Source of the DNA: Artemia franciscana
Lineage: Eukaryota; Arthropoda; Branchiopoda; Anostraca; Artemiidae
Direction of reading: 5' to 3'
Length of the DNA: 64,000 bases
Assembly (NCBI RefSeq): GCF_032884065.1
Contig: NC_088867.1
Coordinates: forward strand, 60,478,466-60,542,465
A program made the translations under genes and the position numbers. Under the pieces are notes generated by a model. The model was given only the letters and a program-made list of their open reading frames with translations. It searched no databases and was not told the DNA's origin. Positions 1,396 to 60,800 of this stretch are shown here, piece by piece. Position 1 is the first letter of the stretch, and every line of letters begins with the position of its first letter.

Positions 1396-1778
1396 CTAAT
1401 CATTACTGATGAGTGAAGGTTTTTCAAAAAGTATCATGTGAGAGGGATTATTAAATATATGCAAACCTAAAGCAGAATCGAAGGAGTTGTTGGAACTATT
1501 TGAAATTAATGCCTTGTCTATGCCATTTTTTTTATAGACCCCTCTTTGGCGAGTAACTGGGGTCTTATCTTTACTGGATTTTAAGAAATTAATGATTTTA
1601 AAATTATTATTAAAAACTACATACAGATTATTTTTTGTGCGAATATTTTTATTTTTGTTGTGATTTTTGGGATTCACGGAAGATAGACGATAATTGAGGC
1701 TTATCAGTATCCTCACATTGTGAAATATCTTCTTTGATTTTACAAGAATGTCTTTTTTGTCTACGTTTAATTATCTTA
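1396..1778 (-). pseudogene. Penelope-like element C-terminal half, GIY-YIG core deleted
   Basis: On the minus strand KIIKRRQKRHSCK, then RTKNNLYVVFNNNFKI, then KDKTPVTRQRGVY align with the intact copy at 50.93-51.63 kb (INNIINRRGKRHSHK, KTPVTRQRGVYQIP). Directly after GVY the sequence jumps to a stretch matching DDIIKALNSN of the intact copy. About 30 residues holding the CDCGKFYVG part of the GIY-YIG nuclease are therefore lost. The remainder (SFDSALGLHIFNNPSHMILF) aligns again. The reading frame is also shifted near 1690. The N-terminal side is cut by the element X copy; the other half of the same element continues at 3383. Confidence 0.8.
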
Positions 1779-3382
1779 TCAAACAGTTCGTGGTAACGAA
1801 CTGTAGTAAGGCTCAATAGTAACCAAAACTCTAAAAAATGGAATTTTGGTACCAATAGCTACATCAAAAGAATCGCATTTTCAAGCATAATTTTAAAAAT
1901 ATAAGTTTCATCAAGTTTAGTCTTACCCATCAAACGTTACGAGCCTGAGAAAATTTGCGTTATTTTGGAAAATAGGGGAAAAAAACCCCTATAAGTCATA
2001 GAATCTTAACGAAAATCACACCATCAGATTCAGCGTATCAGAGAACCCTACTGTAGAAGTTTCAAGCTCCTATCTGCAAAAATGTGGAATTTTATATTTT
2101 TTGCCAGAAGGCAGATCACGGATGCGTGTTTATTTGTTTGTTTGTTTTTTTTTTCCAGGGGTGATCGTATCGACCCAGTTATCTTAGAATGTTGCGAGAG
2201 GGCTCATTCTAACGGAAATGAAAAGTTCTAGTGCCCTTTTTACGTGACCAAAAAATTGGAGGGCACCTAGGCCCCCTCCCACGCTAATTATTCTCCCAAA
2301 GTCAACGGATCAAAATTCTGAGATAGCCATTTTATTCAGCGTAGTCGAAAAACCTTATAACTATGTCTTTGGGGACGACTTACTCCCCCGCAGTCCCCGT
2401 GGGGGGGACTCGATGACTTTTCATCGATGGGACCTCGATAACTTTTTCATCGAGGAATTTGTCATGGGGGAAGAAAATTTCCATGAAGGGAGCGCAGGAT
2501 TTACTAGCATTACTTAAAAAAAAACATGAAAAAATAAATATGAAAAAGCTTTTTTTTCAGTTGGAAGTAAGCAGCAGCATTAAAACTTAAAACGAACAGA
2601 AATTGTTACCCATATGAGGGGCTCACCTACTCCTAATACCTTGCTCTTTACGCTAAAGTATTTTTAGTAATTTCAACTATTTATTCTGCGGCTTTTGTGA
2701 TTCAGGGGTCATTCTTAATGAATTGGGACAAAATTTAAGCTTTAGTGTACAGAGTGAGGTACTGACGAGGGGGCGAACCCCCTCATATATGTAATAAAAA
2801 CATGAGAATACAAAAGTTCTTTACGTAAGCTAATTTGTAAGTTACGTATATCTTTTACTTATAAAAAGATTCGTAAAAAATTAAAAGTTCTAGTTGCCTT
2901 TTTAATTAACCGAAAATCGGAGAGCAACTCGGCTTCCTCCCCCCTCTTTTTTCTCAAAATCATTCGATCAAAATTATGAGAAAGCCATTAAGCCAAAAAA
3001 AATTAATATACAAATTTCGTTTTAATTATTCCTCTGCGGAAAGCCAAAATCAAAACATGCATTGATTCAAAAACGTTCAGAAATTAAATAAAAAAACACA
3101 TTTTTTTAAATGAAAGTAAGGGGCGACATTAAAACTTAAAACAAACAGAAATTACTCCGTATATGAAAGGGGCTTTTCCTTCTCATTGCCCCACTCTTTA
3201 CGCTAAAGGTTTTTACTGTTTTAAAATGTAGAGTTAAGAGAAAGAATCAAACTTTAGCGTAAAGAGCGGGGCGTTGAGAAGGAAAAGCCCCTTTCATATA
3301 CGGAGTAATTTTTGTTCGTTTTAAGTTTTAATGTCGCTCCTTACTTTTATTTAAAAAAAACTTGTCTTTTTTTAGATTTAAT
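1779..3382 (-). mobile_element. Element X, near full length (1604 bp), inserted in a Penelope-like element
   Basis: Non-coding dispersed element. The left edge is TCAAACAG followed by the hairpin ACAGTTCG-6 nt-CGAACTGT. The right edge is a palindrome (3088-3382) whose arms carry 'tatgaaaggggcttttcctt' and its complement. A second imperfect palindrome with a ~100-bp loop lies around 2610-2830. The ends are fixed by the interrupted host. Joining the base at 3383 to the base at 1778 (minus sense GTCAA + TAAG) gives in-frame FVNKIIKRRQKRHS, matching FINNIINRRGKRHS of the intact Penelope-like copy. There is no target duplication and insertion is between A and T. Confidence 0.85.
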
Positions 3383-4570
3383 TTGACAAAAGGAATGGGG
3401 TATCCATTATCATAAACAATATCTCTGATAAAGTTTATTTCTGCATTTATATACGAATCGAACCAAATTTTCAGGGCACGACCAATGAGAGTAGTTACAA
3501 CTGCTCTTATAACTTGTTGGGGGTGATTTGAATTAAAGTGAAGATATCTATTGTCTTGTGTTGGTTTTTGATAGATAGTAAAATCCAGTCTATCAGAATT
3601 ACGAATAATTAACATATCTAAAAACGGTAGTTTATTTTCAATTTCAATTTCTAGGGTGAATAGCAAATTTCGGTCATAAGTGTTAAGATGATCTAAGAAG
3701 CCCTGAAGTTCAGCTTCCCCTTAATTTCAAAGTGAAATTACGTCATCCATATTACGATCCCAAGAGACGTGTTCCTAAAAAATAAGAATTTAATGCCCAA
3801 TTTTCAAGGTTCTCGACATAAATATTTGCCAGTAGCCCGGATAAAGGGGCCCCCATGGATAACCCATTTTTTTGCTGATAAAAAGAATCGCTAAATTGAA
3901 AATACACTGAAAACTTATTATAAATTTTAACGAGAGTCATTAAAACTTCATAATCAATGCCCGTCGCTGAAACCCCGATTAAGTGGTATTTTTCTTCTAT
4001 TTTGTTTTTTAATAATTCCTCAGAAATAGTCACATCTATATTTGTATACATCGAAACAATGTCAAAACTACTAACTATTGTGTTTTCTGAAATACTTGTG
4101 TTACAAGTTTTTTAACTAAATCTGCGGAATTACAAATATAGGAATTTTGGGAATACAATAAAGGTTTGAAAGCTGTGCAAAGCCATTTCCTAATATTTTG
4201 ACAGCGGGGGCTTTAGTACATGCTACGATAGGTCTTAAGGGAATACCTTGTTTATGTATTTTTGGTAAACCGTAGAGTTTGGGATAGAAACTACCACGGG
4301 GAAAAATTTGTTGTATAATTGTGGGGTGATTTTACCATTTTGTTTTAGCTGCTTTATTTTGTTTAAACTGATCAGTAGGATCATGAGTTATTGTTTTATA
4401 TGTGATTGTGTCATTTAAATGCGAAAGAATTTTGTTGTCACAATCTGTTGTATTCATGACAACAAGTGAATTGCTTTTGTCTGCTTTAGTTATTATAATA
4501 GACGGGTCTTTGCGTAGATTAGAGAGTATTTTTATGTCGTGCAAATTTTTCGGTGTGGAAGTGGTAGGAG
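3383..4570 (-). pseudogene. Penelope-like element reverse transcriptase, frameshifted
   Basis: Read on the minus strand the motifs come in the order expected for Penelope-like reverse transcriptase. They are HDIKILSNLRKD and IIITKADKSNSLVVMN (about 4330-4545), GLPKIHKQGIPLRPIV (about 4210-4260), SFDIVSMYTNID (about 4035-4070), QQKNGLSMGAPLSGLLANIY (about 3810-3870), the YxDD-equivalent DRNMDDVISL (about 3725-3755), then PFLDMLIIRNSD, FTIYQKPTQDNRYLHFNS and IRDIVYDNGYPIPFV down to 3383. At least three frameshifts or stops separate the blocks, so it is dead. The GIY-YIG half continues beyond the element X insertion at 1778. Confidence 0.88.
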
Positions 4571-4699
4571 TTTCTAACCCTGATGAAGTTAAATCTGGTC
4601 TTATAAATACCCTTTATAACAGCCAAAAAAAGGTTAAGCCTCCTATTCAATTTTCTAATTTTCGTATTTTAATGTAAGTTTATTTATATATACATTTTT

Positions 4700-4813
4700 T
4701 TTTACTCTCTTATTGTACTGATAATGGCCCTTGGACATAGGGCCGAAATATTCACTGAATTGATTTCCACTGTCTTGAAAAGATTTTCCCTATTGTTTTT
4801 ACCTTGTATTGTT

Positions 4814-4815
<2 letters not shown>
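4700..4815 (+). mobile_element. Terminal segment of a Penelope-like element in inverted orientation
   Basis: This matches the 3' tail of the element at 832-965, but lies on the opposite strand and on the 5' side of the minus-strand RT fragment. The layout resembles the inverted terminal copies (pseudo-LTRs) reported for Penelope-like elements. It runs straight into a (TA)n tract, as the copy at 832 does. Confidence 0.6.
4718..4748 (+). ncRNA. Hammerhead-ribozyme-like motif
   Basis: CTGATAA, one extra T, stem GGCCCT, loop TGGACAT, stem AGGGCC, then GAAA. The CUGANGA box here has A where G8 is expected (CUGAUAA), so this copy is probably inactive. It has the same one-base offset between core box and stem II as the other two copies. 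The call rests on the order of core boxes and on the family context; flanking stems were not established. Confidence 0.35.

Positions 4816-4889
<74 letters not shown>
4816..4889. repeat. (TA)n microsatellite
   Basis: About 72 bp of TA dinucleotide at the outer end of the Penelope-like terminal segment. Confidence 0.97.
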
Positions 4890-12665: not shown

Positions 12666-12868
12666 TTCAATTTCAGTTTTTTCAGCTCAATTGGCTAAAA
12701 TTAATGTACAAGAGGAACGGCTTGCCAGTTTATATATCAACTTCAAATTCAGTTTTCTAAGCTCACTTGTCTATTTTTGCGTTTCAACTGAAAAGAAATT
12801 TAAATTAATCACCCCCATGCTCTTTTGTATCTGAAACATTCATACCATATGAGTGTCTCTTATTGGGA

Positions 12869-14896
12869 TTAAATAAGAAATCTAGTTTTTTTAACTTAAA
12901 GTAAGGAGCGACATTAAAACTTAACATGAACAGAAATTACTCCGGATATAAAATGGGTTGTCCCCTCCACAATCCTTTGCTCTTTACGGTAAAGTTTTTA
13001 ATTGTTTTAAAAAGTAGAATTGTGGCAAAGAGTCAAACTTTAGCGTAAAGAGCGAGGGATTGTGGAGGGGACAGCCCATTTCATATACGGAGTAATTTCC
13101 GTTCGTTTTAAGTTTTAATGTCGCTCCTTACTTTCAGTTAAAAAAACTATATTTTTTTATTTAATTTCTGAACATTTTTGAATTAATGCAAGTTTGATTT
13201 TGCTCTCCGCACATAAATTATTAAAATGAAATTTGCATATTAATTCTTTTTTGGCTAAATGGTTTTTTCTTAGTTTTGATCAGACGATTTTGAGAAATAA
13301 GGGGTGGGGAAGGAGGCCTAGTTGCCCTCCAATTTTTCGGTCACTTAAAAAGGCAACTAGAACTTTTAATTTTTAACGAACGTTTTTATTAGTAAAAAAT
13401 ATACGTTACTTAAGAATTAACTTACGTAACAAACTTTTATATTCTTATATTTTATTATGTATATGAGGGGTTTTATCCCCTCGTTAATACCTCGCGCTTT
13501 ACACTAAATCTTAAGTTTTATCCCAATTCTTTAAGAATGATCCCTAAATCAGAAAGGCCTTAGAATAAATAGTTGAAATTAGAAAAAATACTTTTGCATA
13601 AAGAGCGAGGTATTTATCTCCTCCTAAATACCTCGCTCTTTATGCTGAAGTATTTTTAGAACCCCTCATATGCGTAACAATCTCTGTTCGTTTTAAGTTT
13701 TAATGCTACTAAGCAAAAAAGCAAACTTTCGCATGCAAACCGATTAGGGTTCGCGTAGCGCAGGTGCCGATCTCCTGATTCTCAGCCCTCGGCCGGGGTG
13801 CAATGCGTGGTTGGGGGCAAGCCATCCGACGCTTTCCCGTGCTTTTCCCTAGATTTCTCTAGGTACCCATTTGAAGCTGGGTGGACTTTTGGCTTGTCTT
13901 ACGGGGAAACGCCACTAACCCTCGTCCTAAACCAAACGGTCGGCACCACCGAGATTCGAACCAGCGACCCTTCGCTTGTGAGTTCGGCGCGTTAACCACT
14001 CGGCCATGGACGGACAGTCCATGCTACTCCTTACTTTCAATTGAAAAAACTTTTTCCTGTTTATTTTTTCATTGTTTTTTTTTATAGTAATGCTAGAAAA
14101 TCCAGCGTCATTTTCATTGAATTTCTCTTCCCCCCTGACATATTCCTCCAAGGAAAGATCCTCCCACATATCCCCCTCCCCTCAACCCCACCCTCAAATC
14201 AAAAAATCCCCCTGAAAACGTCTGTACACTTCCCAATAACCATTACTATATGCAAACACTGGTCAAAGTTTGTAACTTGCAGCCCCTCCCCCAGGGAATT
14301 GTGGGGGAGTAAGACATCCCCAAAGACATAGTTATTATGGTTTTCGACTATGTTGAACAAAATGGCGATCTCAAAATTTTGATCCGTTGACTTTGAGAAA
14401 AAATGAGCGTGGGAGGGGGCCTAGATGCCCTCCAATTTTAAAAAGGGCACTAGAACTTTTCATTTCCGTTAGAATGAGCCCTCTTGCGACATTCTAGGAC
14501 CACTTGGTCGATGCGATGACCCCTGGGAAAAAAAACAAAAAAACAAATAAACACGCACCCGTGATTTGTCTTCTGGCAAAAAATACAAAATTCCACATTT
14601 TTACAGATAGGAGCTTGAAACTTCTACAGTAGGGTTCTCTGATGGTGTCATTTTCGTTAAGATCCTACGACTTTTAGGGGGTGTTTCCCCTTATTTTCCT
14701 AAATAAGGCAAATTTTCTCAGGCTCGTAACTTTTTATGGGTAGGACTAAACTTGATGAAACTTATATATTTGAAATCAGCATTAAAATACGATTCTTTTG
14801 ATGTAGCTATTGATATCAAAATTCATTTTTTTAGAGTTTTGGTTACTATTGAGCCGGGTCGCTCCTTACTACAGTTCGTAGCCACGAACTGTTTGA
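12869..14896 (+). mobile_element. Element X, full length, with a SINE inserted
   Basis: Begins ATTAAATAAG, then the ~300-bp terminal palindrome (12869-13175) whose arms carry 'gttgtcccctccacaatcc' and its complement. The 'tagttgccctccaatttttc' block follows, then the inner palindrome (13455-13705), the SINE (13711-14020), and the conserved block to 'gttcgtagccacgaactg' and TTTGA. Without the SINE and one target copy it is about 1710 bp, matching the 1728 bp of the copy at 32.4 kb. Confidence 0.9.
13711..14020 (-). mobile_element. tRNA-derived SINE with 8-bp target duplication
   Basis: ATGCTACT occurs at 13703-13710 and again at 14021-14028, flanking a 310-bp insert exactly. On the minus strand the insert begins with a tRNA-like head. 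Its A box is TGGCCGAGTGGTTAACGCGC (14006-13987) and its B box is GGTTCGAATCTC (13962-13951). A ~200-bp body with 'caaatgggtacctaga' follows, then a T-rich tail 'gtttgcttttttgctt'. The head resembles Ser/Leu- or Val-type tRNAs but the anticodon stem is imperfect, so the parent tRNA is not assigned. It inserted after the host copy of element X. Confidence 0.88.
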
Positions 14897-16422
14897 TTAC
14901 AAGGGGCTTAAACAGCCAAACAGGGGCTTAAACTCTTTCATATACGGGGTAATTTCTGTTCGTTTTAAGTTTAGATCTTTCTCCTTACTTTGAGTTAAAA
15001 AAAAAGCTTTTTTTTATTTAATTTCTGAACATTTTTTGAATTTAAGCAAATTTTGATTTTGGCCCTCCGCACATGAATACTTAGAACGAAATTTGCATAT
15101 TTTTTTTGGCTAAATAGCTTTTTCTTAGTTTTGATCGGACGATTTTGAGAAAAATGAATAGGGGAGGGGGCTTAGTTGTCTTTCAATCTGTTGGTTACTT
15201 AAAAGGGCAACTAGAACTTTTAATTTTTTACGAACGTTTTTATTAATAAAAAACATTCGCAACTTCCGAATTAAGTTTCGTAACGAACTTCTATATTCGT
15301 ATATTTTTATCACGTGTATGAGGGGGTTTGGACTCTCTTTAAGACCTTGTTCTTTGCACCAAAGCTTAAATTTTGTCCCAATTCTTTAAGAATGACCCCT
15401 GAATCACAAAGGCCGTAGAAGAAATAGTTGAAATTACTAAAAGTACTTTAGCGTAAAGAGCAGGTATTTAGGAGGAGATGAACCCCTCATATGCGTAAAA
15501 ATTTCTGTTCGTTTTGTTTTAATGCTACTTCTTACTTTCAGTTGAAAAAACTTTTTCATATTTATCTTTTCATTGTTTTAAATAATATTAGAAAACCCTG
15601 CGCCCCCTTCAAGGAAATTCTCTCCTCCCATGAAAAATTCCTCCATGGAAAGATCCTCCCAACTAAGCCCTCCTCTCAACCCCCTCCCCTATCCAAGAAA
15701 AAATTCCCCTGAATAACCATTCCTATATGTAAACACTGCTAAAAGTTTGTAACTTGTAGCCTCTCCCCCGGGGACTTTGAGGGAGTAAGTCATCCCCAAA
15801 GACATAGTTGTAAGGTTTTTCGACTACGTTGAATAAAATGGCTCTCTCAGAATTTTGATCCGGTGACTTTGGGAAAATAATTAGCGTGGGAGGGGGCCTA
15901 GGTGCCCTCCAATTTTTTTGGTCACTTAAAAAGGGCACTAGAACTTTTGATTTCTGTTAGAATGAGCCCTCTCGCAATATTCTAGGGCCAATCGGACGAT
16001 ACAATCACCCCTGGGGACAAGAAAAAAACCAAATAAACACGCACCCGTTATCAGTCTTCTGGCATAAAATATGAAATTCCACATTTTTGTAGATAGGAGC
16101 TCGAAAATTCTACAGTAGGATTCTCTAATACGCTGAATGTGATGGTGTTATTTTCGTCAAGATTCTATGACTTTTATGGGGTGTTTCTCCCTATTTTCCA
16201 AAATAACGCAAATTTTCTCAGGCAGGGAACTTTTGATAAGTAACACTAAATTTGATGAAACTTATATATTTTAAATCAGCGTAAAAATCCGATTCTTTTG
16301 ACGTATCTATTAGTATCAAAATCCCATTTTTAAAGTTTCGTTTACTATTGAGCCGGATCGCTCCTTACTACAGTTCGTAACCACGAACTGTTTGATTACA
16401 AGGGGCTTAAACAGCCAAACAG
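14892..16422 (+). mobile_element. Second element X copy in a tandem arrangement sharing a 32-bp flank
   Basis: The flank 'tttgattacaaggggcttaa' plus 'acagccaaacag' occurs at 14892-14923 and again, identical, at 16391-16422. Between them lies an element X copy lacking the left palindrome arm. It starts inside the right arm at about 14930 ('ctctttcatatacgggg') and ends with the hairpin and TTTGA at 16395. Sharing 32 bp of non-element flank indicates tandem duplication of about 1.5 kb or recombination between copies, not two independent insertions. Confidence 0.8.
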
Positions 16423-17828: not shown

Positions 17829-31951
<14,123 letters not shown>

Positions 31952-50489: not shown

Positions 50490-50888
50490 GTTCTGTTGGC
50501 TTGTCTCTCTTACTGCACCTGTGTATTTCAGCAGGTGTTTGCTTATTCCAGTTTCTGTCTTTGCCTGAGTTTGTGTGTGTGTATGTGCTTTCGTCTCTCT
50601 TACTCTCTGTGCCTGTCTGTCTGTGCGTGTGTTGGCATTTCCCAGTGTCTGTTTGTATATCTGAATGTGTGTGTTTGTATGTGTTTTTGTATCTCTCATT
50701 CTCTGCACCTGTGTCTCTAGGCTGGATGTTTGCTTGTCCCTGTGTCTGTCTTTGTTTTTTAGGTTTGAATATGTGGGTTTGTATATGTCTTTATTTCTTT
50801 CACTCTATGTGCCTGTGTTTCTAGGTGGATAGTTTCTTATCTTAGTGCCTATCTTTATCTCTCTCTGTCACACACACACACTCTACCT
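50490..50888 (+). repeat. Degenerate GT/CT-rich minisatellite, left of the Penelope-like insert
   Basis: Imperfect units such as 'ctctgtgcctgtctgtctgt' and 'ctgcacctgtgtctctagg'. Open frames on both strands are low-complexity. Similar units resume at 51990, so the Penelope-like fragment seems to have landed inside this array. Confidence 0.75.
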
Positions 50889-50924
50889 ATGTATCTGAAC
50901 AGCTGTTTGATTGTCTCTCACTAT

Positions 50925-51632
50925 GCCGCTATAAGAGGTGTCGTAAAATCTCTCGTCGATCGTGCCCTAAACATTTGTTCTGATTCCTACATCACAGCTG
51001 AACTAGACTTTATCAGGGACATACTTTTTGGAAATGGGTATCCTCTTTTATTTATTAATAATATAATTAACCGTAGAGGGAAAAGACACTCCCATAAAAT
51101 CAACGATAATTTACCATGTGAGAATCCCGATAAGCCCCAAAACATAATTTACCTCCCATATATCCCAAAAATCACTAGAAATCTTAAAAAAGTATGCACA
51201 CAAAATAATCTGTATGTTGTATTTACTAATAATTTGAAAATCATAAATCTCCTAAATTCTGGTAAAGATAAGACTCCAGTTACTCGCCAAAGAGGTGTCT
51301 ATCAAATACCATGCGACTGTGGCAAATTCTATGTAGGGAGAACCCAGCAGAATTTCGAGAAACGCCTACAACAACATAAAGATGATATCATTAAAGCTCT
51401 GAATTCTAATGTTACTTCTGTTTCTTTTGATTCTGCTTTAAGCAGTCATTTTTTCGAAAATCCTTGTCACAAAATACTTTTTGAAGAATCCGCCATTATT
51501 AGCAATGATCTAGGCATAAAGCAAGTAGTTCGAGAAGTAATTGAAATCAGACTTGAGATTAATAATAATGTCTCCTTAAATAGGGATTTAGGAGAATATT
51601 CACTGAATGCTCTATACACAAATTTAATTTAA
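50925..51632 (+). CDS. Penelope-like element C-terminal part with intact GIY-YIG endonuclease
   Basis: Open frame of about 235 codons with a natural stop. It begins within the RT thumb/linker (IRGVVKSLVDRALNICSDSY, then IRDILFGNGYPLLF), which aligns with IRAVVTTLIGRALKIW and IRDIVYDNGYP of the copy at 3.4 kb. The linker NRRGKRHSHK and LNSGKDKTPVTRQRGVYQIP follow. The GIY-YIG core is GVYQIPCDCGKFYVGRTQQ with the downstream KRLQQHKDDI helix, then SHFFENPCHKILFEESAI and IEIRLEINNNVSLN. The nuclease makes the nick that primes target-primed reverse transcription. The RT catalytic part is absent, so the copy is 5'-truncated. Of the Penelope-like copies here it is the least damaged. Confidence 0.87.
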   Translation, partial: AAIRGVVKSLVDRALNICSDSYITAELDFIRDILFGNGYPLLFINNIINRRGKRHSHKINDNLPCENPDKPQNIIYLPYIPKITRNLKKVCTQNNLYVVFTNNLKIINLLNSGKDKTPVTRQRGVYQIPCDCGKFYVGRTQQNFEKRLQQHKDDIIKALNSNVTSVSFDSALSSHFFENPCHKILFEESAIISNDLGIKQVVREVIEIRLEINNNVSLNRDLGEYSLNALYTNLI

Positions 51633-57809: not shown

Positions 57810-60700
57810 TCAAATAAAACTTTCAAAAATATTCCTCAATTTCTTCTTCCAAGAATTTAGATGAGGCAAGGTCAGACTCCCTGCATACCCCCCTCGTTCC
57901 ACGGCAGGAGCAAAAGCTGCATCATCCCTTCGTTTTTGAGCAGCTACAGTCTTTGCAGCATCTTCCACTTTTGCATCTGCAGTAAACTTCCAAGATTGAT
58001 TCTCTTTGCAGCTTGAGACGACCGCATCTACTCCCCCTTCAGCCATCTTCCATCCATGGAGGAGTGGATCTGGTATGCTCGGCCGAGGCTGTACTGACGA
58101 CAAGATTGAGAATGTGGCGAATATGGCTCTTTGTATTTATTGCTCGAAGGTGGCAGTCTTCTCACATCTTTTTTTTGGCACCAAATGTAAGCCCTTACAC
58201 TGGCCAGTGAATTGAATCCGGCCTGTTTACCGTACATTTCAATGACCAGCAATTTTGATAGGTCGTAAACTTCTCTAAACGCGTCGACTGAAAGCTGCCC
58301 TTCTGCATCCTTGATCCGCTACGTCACAGACACCATTTTTGAGGCAAAAGTTGGAGACATCGTGGTGTTTAAGAAAGAAGCTTTCCCGACGCCGAAGAAA
58401 AAGTTCGTTTTGTCATACCCTGACAGACAGTGCACGAACAGTAACATAAAATGCTCCTCTTTGGACAAGTGGACTCCATCCGCCAGCTCCTGTACTGGGA
58501 TAATGTAAGTCAGGAACTTCAAGAAAATTTCGCTCAGTCCTTCAGCTTTAAGCTCTTCAAAAAATTAACACAGGCTACTGCCACGTCTGTGTCGTAGGCA
58601 TGCACAGCGGTGCTACAAGCATAACGGCTAGCGTACATGGCATGTGTCATAAGGCGTTGGTCCACCTCTTCGTGGCTGGAGGACAAGCATTCCTCGTAGT
58701 CACAGTGTTCTGGTAAAATTGGACTGTAGCCACACTTGACCAGAGACACTTTGAATCTCTCATCGAACCCACCTGAGAGAAAAAGGTTGAGTGCGTTCGG
58801 AAGCTGATCACCCATCTGCTCCCAGGTTTCACACAAAATTTCGAGGAGCCGGCTGTTAGACTCTGAGCTTGCAAGTAAGGCATCCCATTCTTTAATTGTG
58901 CTAAGAGCGGAAATCTGGAGGTTTTTCCCTTTCCCTCGTCGGAGTCTGCATGCTGATTTCAAGGAGATCGACTCTCAGGTGTCCGTGAGCTTCACAAAAA
59001 TCCTGTTGTACTGATCTGCGACAATGTGGACTTCAGGAATACCCACTGGATGATCATTCAGCCATGATAGAAGCAATCTTTCCACGAATGATTTGACTGT
59101 TTCAAACCTATCAGGCCGACATAACCTTATCTTGGACATTAGATCAATGATGTGCACTGTAGCTGATGTTGTTTCTTTGGATTTCAAGGTCACTGGCCAA
59201 GCTGAAAGTTTTCCTTGTTTCTTAGCCAGTTCAACAGCAGAGCTTTGTTCCTCGTCCTCATTTTCCAGCCAGAGGATGTCTTGGTTGATTGTTGCAGAAG
59301 ATGTTTAAAAACAGACGGAGGGAAAGGAAAATCTCATTTGTGAGGATCTTTAAAACGGATTTCTCCTATTATTCGCCGTAGCTCAACTGAGCAGTAATGA
59401 TTCTCTTCAAGGTTGATACTTCACAGCTCAGGAGATCGGTTCTAGGGACACACTTCACTTTCTCAGTTTTTCTCTATGAAGGGAAAGTTCGGGGTGCAAT
59501 CTTTTTCACATCGTCTTTCCTTTTACACAGAAAGTCCTCAACCACCTCTTTTCCTTTTGTGGCTACGCAATTAATATCAGAAAAAAATATTCTCATCGTC
59601 CACACTTCTGACGTCACAATATTCACTAGGTCGAAGTCCAATCTGCTGAACGGATTGCCAAAAGTTGAGAGAATGTCTCGAACTCTATTTCGCAAAAGTT
59701 GTAATCGCGTCGTCGTCGACTGATTGTCTTCGTGATGTTTCAATGTCTCTGTGGATACGTTAACTACTTGCAGGAAACCATTGCTGATGGCAGCGGAAAT
59801 TGGTAAGGTAAGAATCCAAGCTTCAGTCTGTCTCTCATCCATTTGTTCTCCTATTATTCTGGTCGTCGCCTTTGCATCCTTGTTCACTGTACATTCCAGT
59901 ATCTGATCGGAACATGTGGGGGTGAACCTTGTGTGTGTTCTTCACTGTGAAGTATCATTTCATGAGTCTTCTGTGTACGTCAGGAAAGGTTTGTGACTTC
60001 GCATGTCTGATAGGTACTGTATGAGACATATTGTATACTGAGGATGGTCAGCCGCCGCCAAGTATGGCAACATTTGAGCAGTTGCTGTCAAATGAGACTC
60101 CCAGTCATACTCTCGTTCAGCATGAATGAATTGCATCGCTATTTCAAGTATTTCCAAGAACTGCCACCAGAAAGCAAACGTGGGCGATGCATTTCGCAGG
60201 GTATCGAAGGCATTCATTATGGAAGCCAAAGTGATTAAGGCATCGTTTGCCTCCTGAAGTGCAGTTCCCGCGTTAGCAACGTTTGCCAATGAAGTCCTGA
60301 ACAACTCAATGGCACTACCCAGCTGGTCCAGGCGGGATAAGTCTTCTTGTACTTCGGAGTAATACTCTTCCAAGAACTCCCAGTAGAGGGCTAGCAAGAC
60401 ATCGTACAGTAAACAGTAGGCATTGATAGCTTGGTAGTAGCCTTTCCCTTGAAATACCTTTTTGAAAGTACCAGGAAGCAACAGCTTTGCCTGCACTATA
60501 ATCTCTTTGAGTCCGGAGCTGTCCATTATCTTACCAATTGCCTTGAGATAGTTGAGCAGGAGGTGGAAGCCTCCCATCCGTAGGATTCCGTTTTTGAAGT
60601 GATCCGGGTATTTACTTTTCACTCCCTGTGCTAGCTGATAAATGGAGAGATCTTTCGTGACTACCGTATCGCCACAACTGACAGCTTTAATTATCGCCAT
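57810..60700 (-). pseudogene. Decayed member of a large uncharacterised transposon-like protein family
   Basis: Five collinear blocks on the minus strand. Block 1 (60700-59960) has GGFHLLLNYLKAIG, LLLPGTFKKVFQGKGYYQAI, then FWWQFLEILEIAMQFI, DWESHLTATAQMLPYLAAAD and HPQYTICLIQYLSDM. Two in-frame TGA follow. Block 2 (to 59474) has ECTVNKDAK, TEAWILTLPISAAIS and SRLDFDLVNIVTSE, then TAG. After a frameshift, block 3 (59300-58534) has HIIDLMSKIR, HIVADQYNRIFVKL, TGA, then LPEHCDYEECLSSSHEEVDQ, RLMTHAMYA and VHAYDTDVAVACVNF. After another shift, block 4 (to 58028) has LLFVHCLSGYDKTNFFFGVG and YIWCQKKDVRRLPPSS. Block 5 has IPDPLLHGWKM. I recognise the order W..HL..ireMlPyf.a.DH..Y, EE.D.R...HA, DTDV, hal.G.D.t..FfG.GK, LPP, hGW from many multi-copy proteins of cnidarians, arthropods and fishes. 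Their function is not established. Confidence 0.78.
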
Positions 60701-60800
60701 GAACGGTCGCAGAGATTTTTCGATTGTTGCATGGTTGTTTTTTGTACTTCGCGAAGGAAAGGCAAGATATTAGATTAAATATTGACAAATCAATTTCAAA

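Follow-up and report, generated by a model that had tools for sequence, protein, structure and literature searches.

An abundant, putatively rolling-circle element of Artemia franciscana with features of both canonical Helitrons and Helentrons

What kind of element interrupts a Penelope-like element near one end of a 64,000 bp stretch of the Artemia franciscana genome, and how might it have moved there? The stretch as a whole, referred to here as the window (G000:C5:60478466-60542465), belongs to an assembly of 1,270,528,402 bp (1.27 Gb) in 6,468 contigs, for which the published genome description gives 67.26% repeats and 8.81% Helitrons (PMC11492255). We designate the insert element X.

The interrupted Penelope-like element and the limits of the insert

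Removal of window positions 1779-3382 rejoins the broken Penelope-like frame without a gap, as had been claimed from inspection of the DNA alone. The minus-strand frame across the join reads FVNKIIKRRQKRHS, and the join is ungapped with respect to a second Penelope-like copy at about 51.06 kb of the window, with 135 of 184 aligned bp identical and the single 3 bp gap of that alignment lying downstream of the join. This second copy (window 50769-51629) has a longer frame with a GIY-YIG domain, which is typical of Penelope-like elements. Because the frame runs through the join and the alignment with the second copy is ungapped there, a net insert of 1604 bp is the simplest reading for the window copy. 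The original prediction that the frame fixes both ends of the insert thus holds for its net length but not for the exact join, which is ambiguous by one base: with T at both 1779 and 3383, the window copy alone does not discriminate between A^T and T^T. The features of the locus are as follows.

1778..1778, plus strand: host A of the A^T target, from the flanks of 31 paired copies
1779..3382, plus strand: element X, one copy, 94.9% identical to a 26-copy consensus, placed by the join and by alignment; the T at 3382 is host-like in most other copies
1779..1780, plus strand: TC, the proposed 5′ terminus, from end listings and paired copies
1783..1804, plus strand: terminal hairpin ACAGTTCG-TGGTAA-CGAACTGT, from a motif scan against shuffles and the fold of the consensus end
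1805..1811, plus strand: 5′ subterminal inverted repeat AGTAAGGAGCGAC, of which the remnant AGTAAGG is left, most of the 13 bp word (about 10 bp relative to the consensus) being deleted in this copy
2128..2155, plus strand: T-rich stretch with GTTT tetranucleotide repeats, identified by eye
3081..3379, no strand assigned: palindrome with 131 bp arms, the outer arm being the 3′ end, optional in the family, from an inverted-repeat search and copy L009b
3333..3345, plus strand: 3′ subterminal inverted repeat GTCGCTCCTTACT, from the consensus ends
3353..3373, plus strand: A/T hairpin near the 3′ end, with a fold not better than shuffles
3376..3381, plus strand: 3′ terminus ATTTAA, followed by T, from end listings and paired copies
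3383..4830 (outer limit approximate), minus strand: upstream part of the interrupted Penelope-like element, from the frame join and alignment; the other part lies below 1778

A first DNA search for X scored 40 out of 14,030 first-look candidates. A consensus of 1,708 bp was derived from 26 copies with both ends, comprising 25 fetched loci (the best matches) and the window copy, and the identity of the individual copies to this consensus is 94.9-98.5%. Many other copies are better read as TCAAAC...ATTTAA, the usual form of the element, with the final T of ATTTAAT belonging to the host. Because the base after ATTTAAT is T in only 17 of 34 cases, we placed the end of the element at ATTTAA and counted the T as host; the frame of the window copy agrees with an element of 1604 bp that includes this T.

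Terminal structure, transposed strand and target site

Read on the plus strand, the left end of X consists of TCAA, the hairpin (ACAGTTCG, six bases, CGAACTGT) and then AGTAAGGAGCGAC, and the left-end word is TCAAACAGTTCGTGGTAACGAACTGTAGTAAGGAGCGAC. The right end consists of GTCGCTCCTTACT, approximately 32 bases that hold the A/T hairpin, and ATTTAA, with CTCCTTAC...ATTTAA as the right-end word. The terminal hairpin proposed earlier is present at 1783-1804: its 20 bp core, allowing up to 3 mismatches, is matched 14 times in the window, at 13 sites, and never in 100 shuffles. Folded as DNA, the hairpin of the consensus TC end reaches −11.6 kcal/mol, a value equalled by none of 200 shuffles, and the fold of the plus-strand A/T hairpin near the TTAA end does not go beyond chance (42 of 200 shuffles fold as well). 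The two subterminal words of the consensus match each other in inverted orientation over 13 bp; on the plus strand they lie 26 nt inside the TC end and 32 nt inside the 3′ end. None of 2000 shuffles reached 13 bp. The longest open frame of the consensus has 86 codons, and the absence of coding capacity bears out the view that X is non-autonomous.

A palindrome of about 300 bp had been put forward as one end of the element. The palindrome is real (3081-3211 against 3249-3379; 131 bp, 88% complementary) and duplicates the right end of X in reverse, but it is not an essential end, being absent from the 745 bp copy L009b, which contains only consensus positions 1-693 and the last 50 bp. A comparison of the palindrome with Rfam gave 14 rows at E 0.5 or better, 13 of them microRNA families and none at gathering score; these were set aside as long-hairpin noise.

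X had initially been read on the minus strand, as an element with a nearly CTRR-like end and no TC start. The minus-strand TTTGA does lie one base from CTRR and is accompanied by the strong hairpin, but TTAA on the plus strand is also one base away, so that a true CTRR terminus is found on neither strand (TTAA on plus, TTGA on minus). The TC start that is lacking there is present on the other strand: the first two plus-strand bases are TC in 29 of 31 paired copies, with CC in L002 and L017. The TC start, the TTAA end near CTRR, and a hairpin that follows a TC 5′ end immediately, an arrangement shared with FoHeli1/2, together favour the plus strand as the one transposed; we consider this probable, not proven. 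The minus-strand reading, with TTTGA and its strong hairpin as the 3′ end and TTAAAT with the palindrome as the 5′ end, is unlikely but deserves serious consideration. It would place a strong hairpin by the 3′ end with a subterminal repeat before it, which is the 3′ layout described for HINEs (PMC4067079), and the hairpin also folds well on that strand (−10.2 kcal/mol, with 2 of 200 shuffles as good). However, the element would then have no TC start, its hairpin would lie just 4 nt from the end, and the 7 of 14 window left ends without a recognizable right end, as detected by a noisy script, would have to be explained by 5′ loss, although right-end pieces without left ends also exist (10445 and 20004). 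Such pieces, together with spurious pairs produced by the script (8258 and 56123), led us to reject the polarity of truncation as proof of strand.

The same 7 of 14 left ends could be accommodated if X were a minus-strand, retro-type element copied by target-primed reverse transcription, its hairpin being the 3′ end and the lost right ends representing 5′ truncation. We judge this very unlikely, as it stands against precise full-length ends at A^T without a duplication, exact head-to-tail arrays (below), and a hairpin end that carries no poly(A) or microsatellite tail.

The proposal that X inserts between A and T stood when flanking bases were scored in the 31 copies with both ends. Immediately upstream of TC there is an A in 29 copies and a G in 2, and ATTTAA is followed by T in all 31 (L027 was counted out of register and has T in register too), a figure biased towards T by the selection of right ends with a query ending in ATTTAAT. 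Over 45 left ends the preceding base is A in 38, T in 5 and G in 2. Of the 26,035 exact left ends in the assembly, 18,390 (70.6%) have an A in this place.

A target duplication was sought in the 31 paired copies by offset tests and rejected, the best of 63 tests giving p=0.018, uncorrected and resting on single matches; this agrees with the earlier claim of insertion without duplication. Joined flanks could be compared with uninterrupted sequence across the junction for 10 of the 31 copies, the empty sites being ambiguous by one base. Four of these sites fit the reading with T as host sequence (L012, L016, L018 and L030), three do not (the window copy, L010 and W_34099), and three were unusable through self-match or simple repeats (L008, L028 and L009_974). 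The inverted repeats near both ends might suggest a MITE-like element descended from a cut-and-paste (DDE) transposon, but the termini of X themselves are not inverted repeats, and no duplication was found in the 31 paired copies or at the 7 usable joined sites, which makes a cut-and-paste origin hardly credible.

The 3′ flank carries a further, offset signal. At positions 8-11 past ATTTAAT, 107 of 124 bases over 31 flanks, all from best-matching copies, are purines, and position 8 is A in 25 of the 31. The background in 90 control windows further out had a mean of 51.5% purine, a standard deviation of 4.6 points and a maximum of 62.9%. The right end CTTGTTTTTTTTATTTAAT followed by N7 and RRRR occurs 2,203 times in the assembly, a count that carries no weight alone. 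The offset purine motif represents a specific and testable statement on target choice.

Family size and head-to-tail arrays

The exact 27 bp left (hairpin) end was found 12,985 + 13,050 = 26,035 times in the assembly, against none for the reversed control, which places X among the most numerous repeats of this genome. By extrapolation from one window, in which 3 of 14 left ends are exact, the family may number around 1e5 copies. Within the window 33.4% of the bases belong to X, compared with none of the 114,402 bases of loci L031-L061 or of the 57,706 bases of L062-L071, all of which are Helitron-gene loci. This difference between the window and 172 kb of Helitron-gene loci indicates that the density of X varies strongly; the window is not typical, and we therefore claim no genome fraction. 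A literature search found no paper describing the family, although subscription papers were sparsely covered and X may be described there or in Repbase.

Several local arrangements were seen in passing. The first 100 exact X ends listed all fall in the initial 2.8 Mb of G000:C1, a higher density than the genome average of about 20 per Mb. The L016 copy sits at A^T inside another X copy, and in L072 a full-size X right end directly precedes a partial array unit. In the window itself, 12868-16395 holds two tandem copies (16395 and 14896), the inner one truncated on its right side. The same 27 bp flank precedes both, and as they are only about 80-83% alike the duplication is an old one; this tandem was considered as strand evidence, on which it says little.

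Exact head-to-tail joints, in which TTTTTATTTAA runs directly into TCAAACAGTTCG (ATTTAA into TCAAAC), occur 92 + 109 = 201 times in the assembly, and head-to-head joints at 7 sites; the reversed controls gave none in either case. We did not retain the 201:7 ratio as proof of concatemers or circles, because re-insertion in the same direction at a boundary A^T could also produce it and because inverted repeats without a spacer are unstable. A new copy that inserts at the boundary A^T of an older one, a site that retains its favoured 3′ flank, can give a head-to-tail pair. By rough arithmetic, about 1e5 copies over about 1-2e7 favourable A^T sites would give a head-to-tail number of this order, with head-to-head joints at about a tenth of that or less. 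The two copies of the L028 head-to-tail pair, the single pair of this kind inspected beforehand, differ by approximately 14% over their last 150 bp (derived from 93.0% identity including the shared flank), and look to be of different age, which supports the re-insertion route.

Of the first 100 head-to-tail joints listed, three pairs are separated by less than 1 kb, and L072-L074 were chosen for that spacing. In L072 there are three exact joints and units of 510 and 515 bp, with 94% identity across a 756-column overlap. The L073 array has a 752 bp unit with neighbours 99.0% identical over 588, and the L074 array an 886 bp unit with neighbours 99.7% identical over 678. Arrays of such near-identical units are evidence for concatemers or circles; unequal crossing-over is the other explanation. 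Precise head-to-tail joints have been reported for the circles of Helraiser (PMC4778049).

Relation to known rolling-circle elements and their enzymes

Our data are consistent with a model in which X is an abundant non-autonomous element similar to the Helitron superfamily, moved by rolling-circle replication and read on the plus strand, and we think that this is probably its nature. We infer the enzyme, the strand and the circle and, because no autonomous partner was found, the rolling-circle movement itself. The element would be laid out on the plus strand as host A, TC, hairpin, 13 bp repeat, interior, 13 bp repeat, ATTTAA and host T. A RepHel-type enzyme acting in trans would nick before the TC; rolling-circle replication would then copy one strand as far as the TTAA end; and the product, which might be circular, would integrate at an A^T flanked 3′ by a purine-rich stretch. 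The original prediction of a non-autonomous rolling-circle element is upheld by the A^T target, the lack of a duplication, the hairpin and the absence of coding capacity, but it is weakened by the doubtful orientation and by the absence of a RepHel partner in L031-L071. Several points speak against a rolling-circle element: the end is TTAA and not CTRR, the A/T hairpin near it folds no better than shuffles, no RepHel element sharing the ends was found in L031-L071, A precedes only 70.6% of exact left ends, and the head-to-tail joints and arrays have the other possible origins given above.

Like the canonical Helitrons (Helitron1; Helraiser/Helibat), X has a 5′ TC, an A^T target without duplication, AT-rich surroundings with a stronger bias on the 3′ side, and exact head-to-tail joints (PMC4778049); a TC start and A^T insertion are described as canonical features (PMC4067079, PMC4778049). 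X departs from them in ending with TTAA and not CTRR, and in carrying a strong TC-end hairpin, subterminal inverted repeats and the purine motif. The canonical hairpin lies approximately 11 nt before the 3′ end; near that end X has, on the plus strand, the A/T hairpin that 42 of 200 shuffles match.

With the HINE/DINE-1 elements, which are non-autonomous Helentrons, X shares subterminal inverted repeats (12-15 bp there, 13 bp in X), a hairpin near one end, a tetranucleotide microsatellite, a modular interior, the lack of a target duplication and a high copy number (PMC4067079, PMC7492417). In the same descriptions, however, the target is TT rather than A^T, and the repeats lie 2-4 nt from the 5′ end and 38-60 nt from the 3′ end, compared with 26 and 32 nt on the plus strand of X and the reverse on its minus strand; moreover, the 5′ repeat of X is behind the hairpin and is not palindromic. 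The Helitron2-like FoHeli1/2 of Fusarium resemble X in a TC start that leads straight into a hairpin, in the position of the 3′ inverted repeat (20-40 bp from the terminus there, 32 nt in X) and in an AT-rich 3′ terminus, but they are described as ending in ATTTT rather than ATTTAA, as having the inverted repeat within the hairpin rather than behind it, and as targeting TNAT rather than A^T (PMC5148889). Helitron2 has an asymmetric terminal inverted repeat and hairpins at both ends; in X the inverted repeat is subterminal on both sides, and a hairpin is clear at the TC end, the other being matched by 42 of 200 shuffles.

X is therefore neither a canonical Helitron, as it has no CTRR, nor a strict Helentron or HINE, as its target is A^T rather than TT and its repeats are displaced; it works most like both canonical Helitrons and HINEs. 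Finders based on TC...CTRR and searches for TT-target Helentrons would miss such a mixture of A^T target, TC start, TTAA end and subterminal repeats. It is also conceivable, though doubtful, that X represents a distinct rolling-circle lineage, with an enzyme that would read the TC-end hairpin, end at TTAA and choose A^T with A R R R about 8-11 bases to the 3′ side, forming exact head-to-tail concatemers, and with a palindrome that would be a self-primed inverted copy of the 3′ end. X is a tractable system in which to study what ends replication and whether circles or concatemers integrate naturally, since many of its copies are young, its ends are defined and head-to-tail joints occur.

No RepHel partner sharing the ends of X was found in L031-L071 at the thresholds used, where the outer ends of the elements are mostly uncovered, and the only match resembling an X end is a 15 bp A/T-rich one in L068. 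Viral contigs, which were also searched for a partner, gave no exact matches. A search with PF14214 produced 7,435 first-look candidates, of which 150 were scored and 30 fetched, and all 30 match one young canonical Helitron family, the 29 loci other than L061 having flanks of just 1.5 kb. The full copy in L061 has a 1,684 aa open frame with clear relatives among canonical Helitron proteins. L061 was rejected as the partner of X, as its ends differ, with a GC-rich hairpin and a CTAG end unrelated to X. The family (497-5551 in L061) is very numerous and young, with open frames of 1,500-1,690 aa and an N-terminal tandem repeat, AEELPEQRxSRLAAKRE..., whose length varies between copies; in L061 a long (TA)n run comes after the element.

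A search with PF20209 gave 47 matches from 59 candidates. The L070 protein has Rep, PIF1 and a C-terminal endonuclease match (PF14214, PF05970, PF14529 and PF03372, plus DUF6570 and UCH), and by this predicted domain content is Helentron-type; the L068 protein has Rep, PIF1 and a UCH domain. The presence of a Rep-PIF1-endonuclease protein in this genome would suit X as a strict HINE moved by an endonuclease-bearing Helentron, as would the 13 bp subterminal repeats, the hairpin, the GTTT microsatellite and the lack of a target duplication. We nevertheless think it improbable that X is a strict HINE, as the target is A^T rather than TT, the repeats lie 26 nt rather than 2-4 nt from the TC end, a search of L062-L071, where most outer ends are uncovered, showed no X end, and the sequence on the 3′ side where the L070 and L071 copies stop matching is not an X end. 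The UCH (ubiquitin carboxyl-terminal hydrolase) domain of these Helentron-type proteins lies on the N side in L070 (308-7645) and on the C side in L068 (3-7547).

Elsewhere in the window, the minus strand of 59474-60769 contains adjacent open frames of 155 and 269 codons with no Pfam match, and a long (TA)n run at 21100-21816 gives open frames of more than 200 codons in several frames, which are a repeat artefact.
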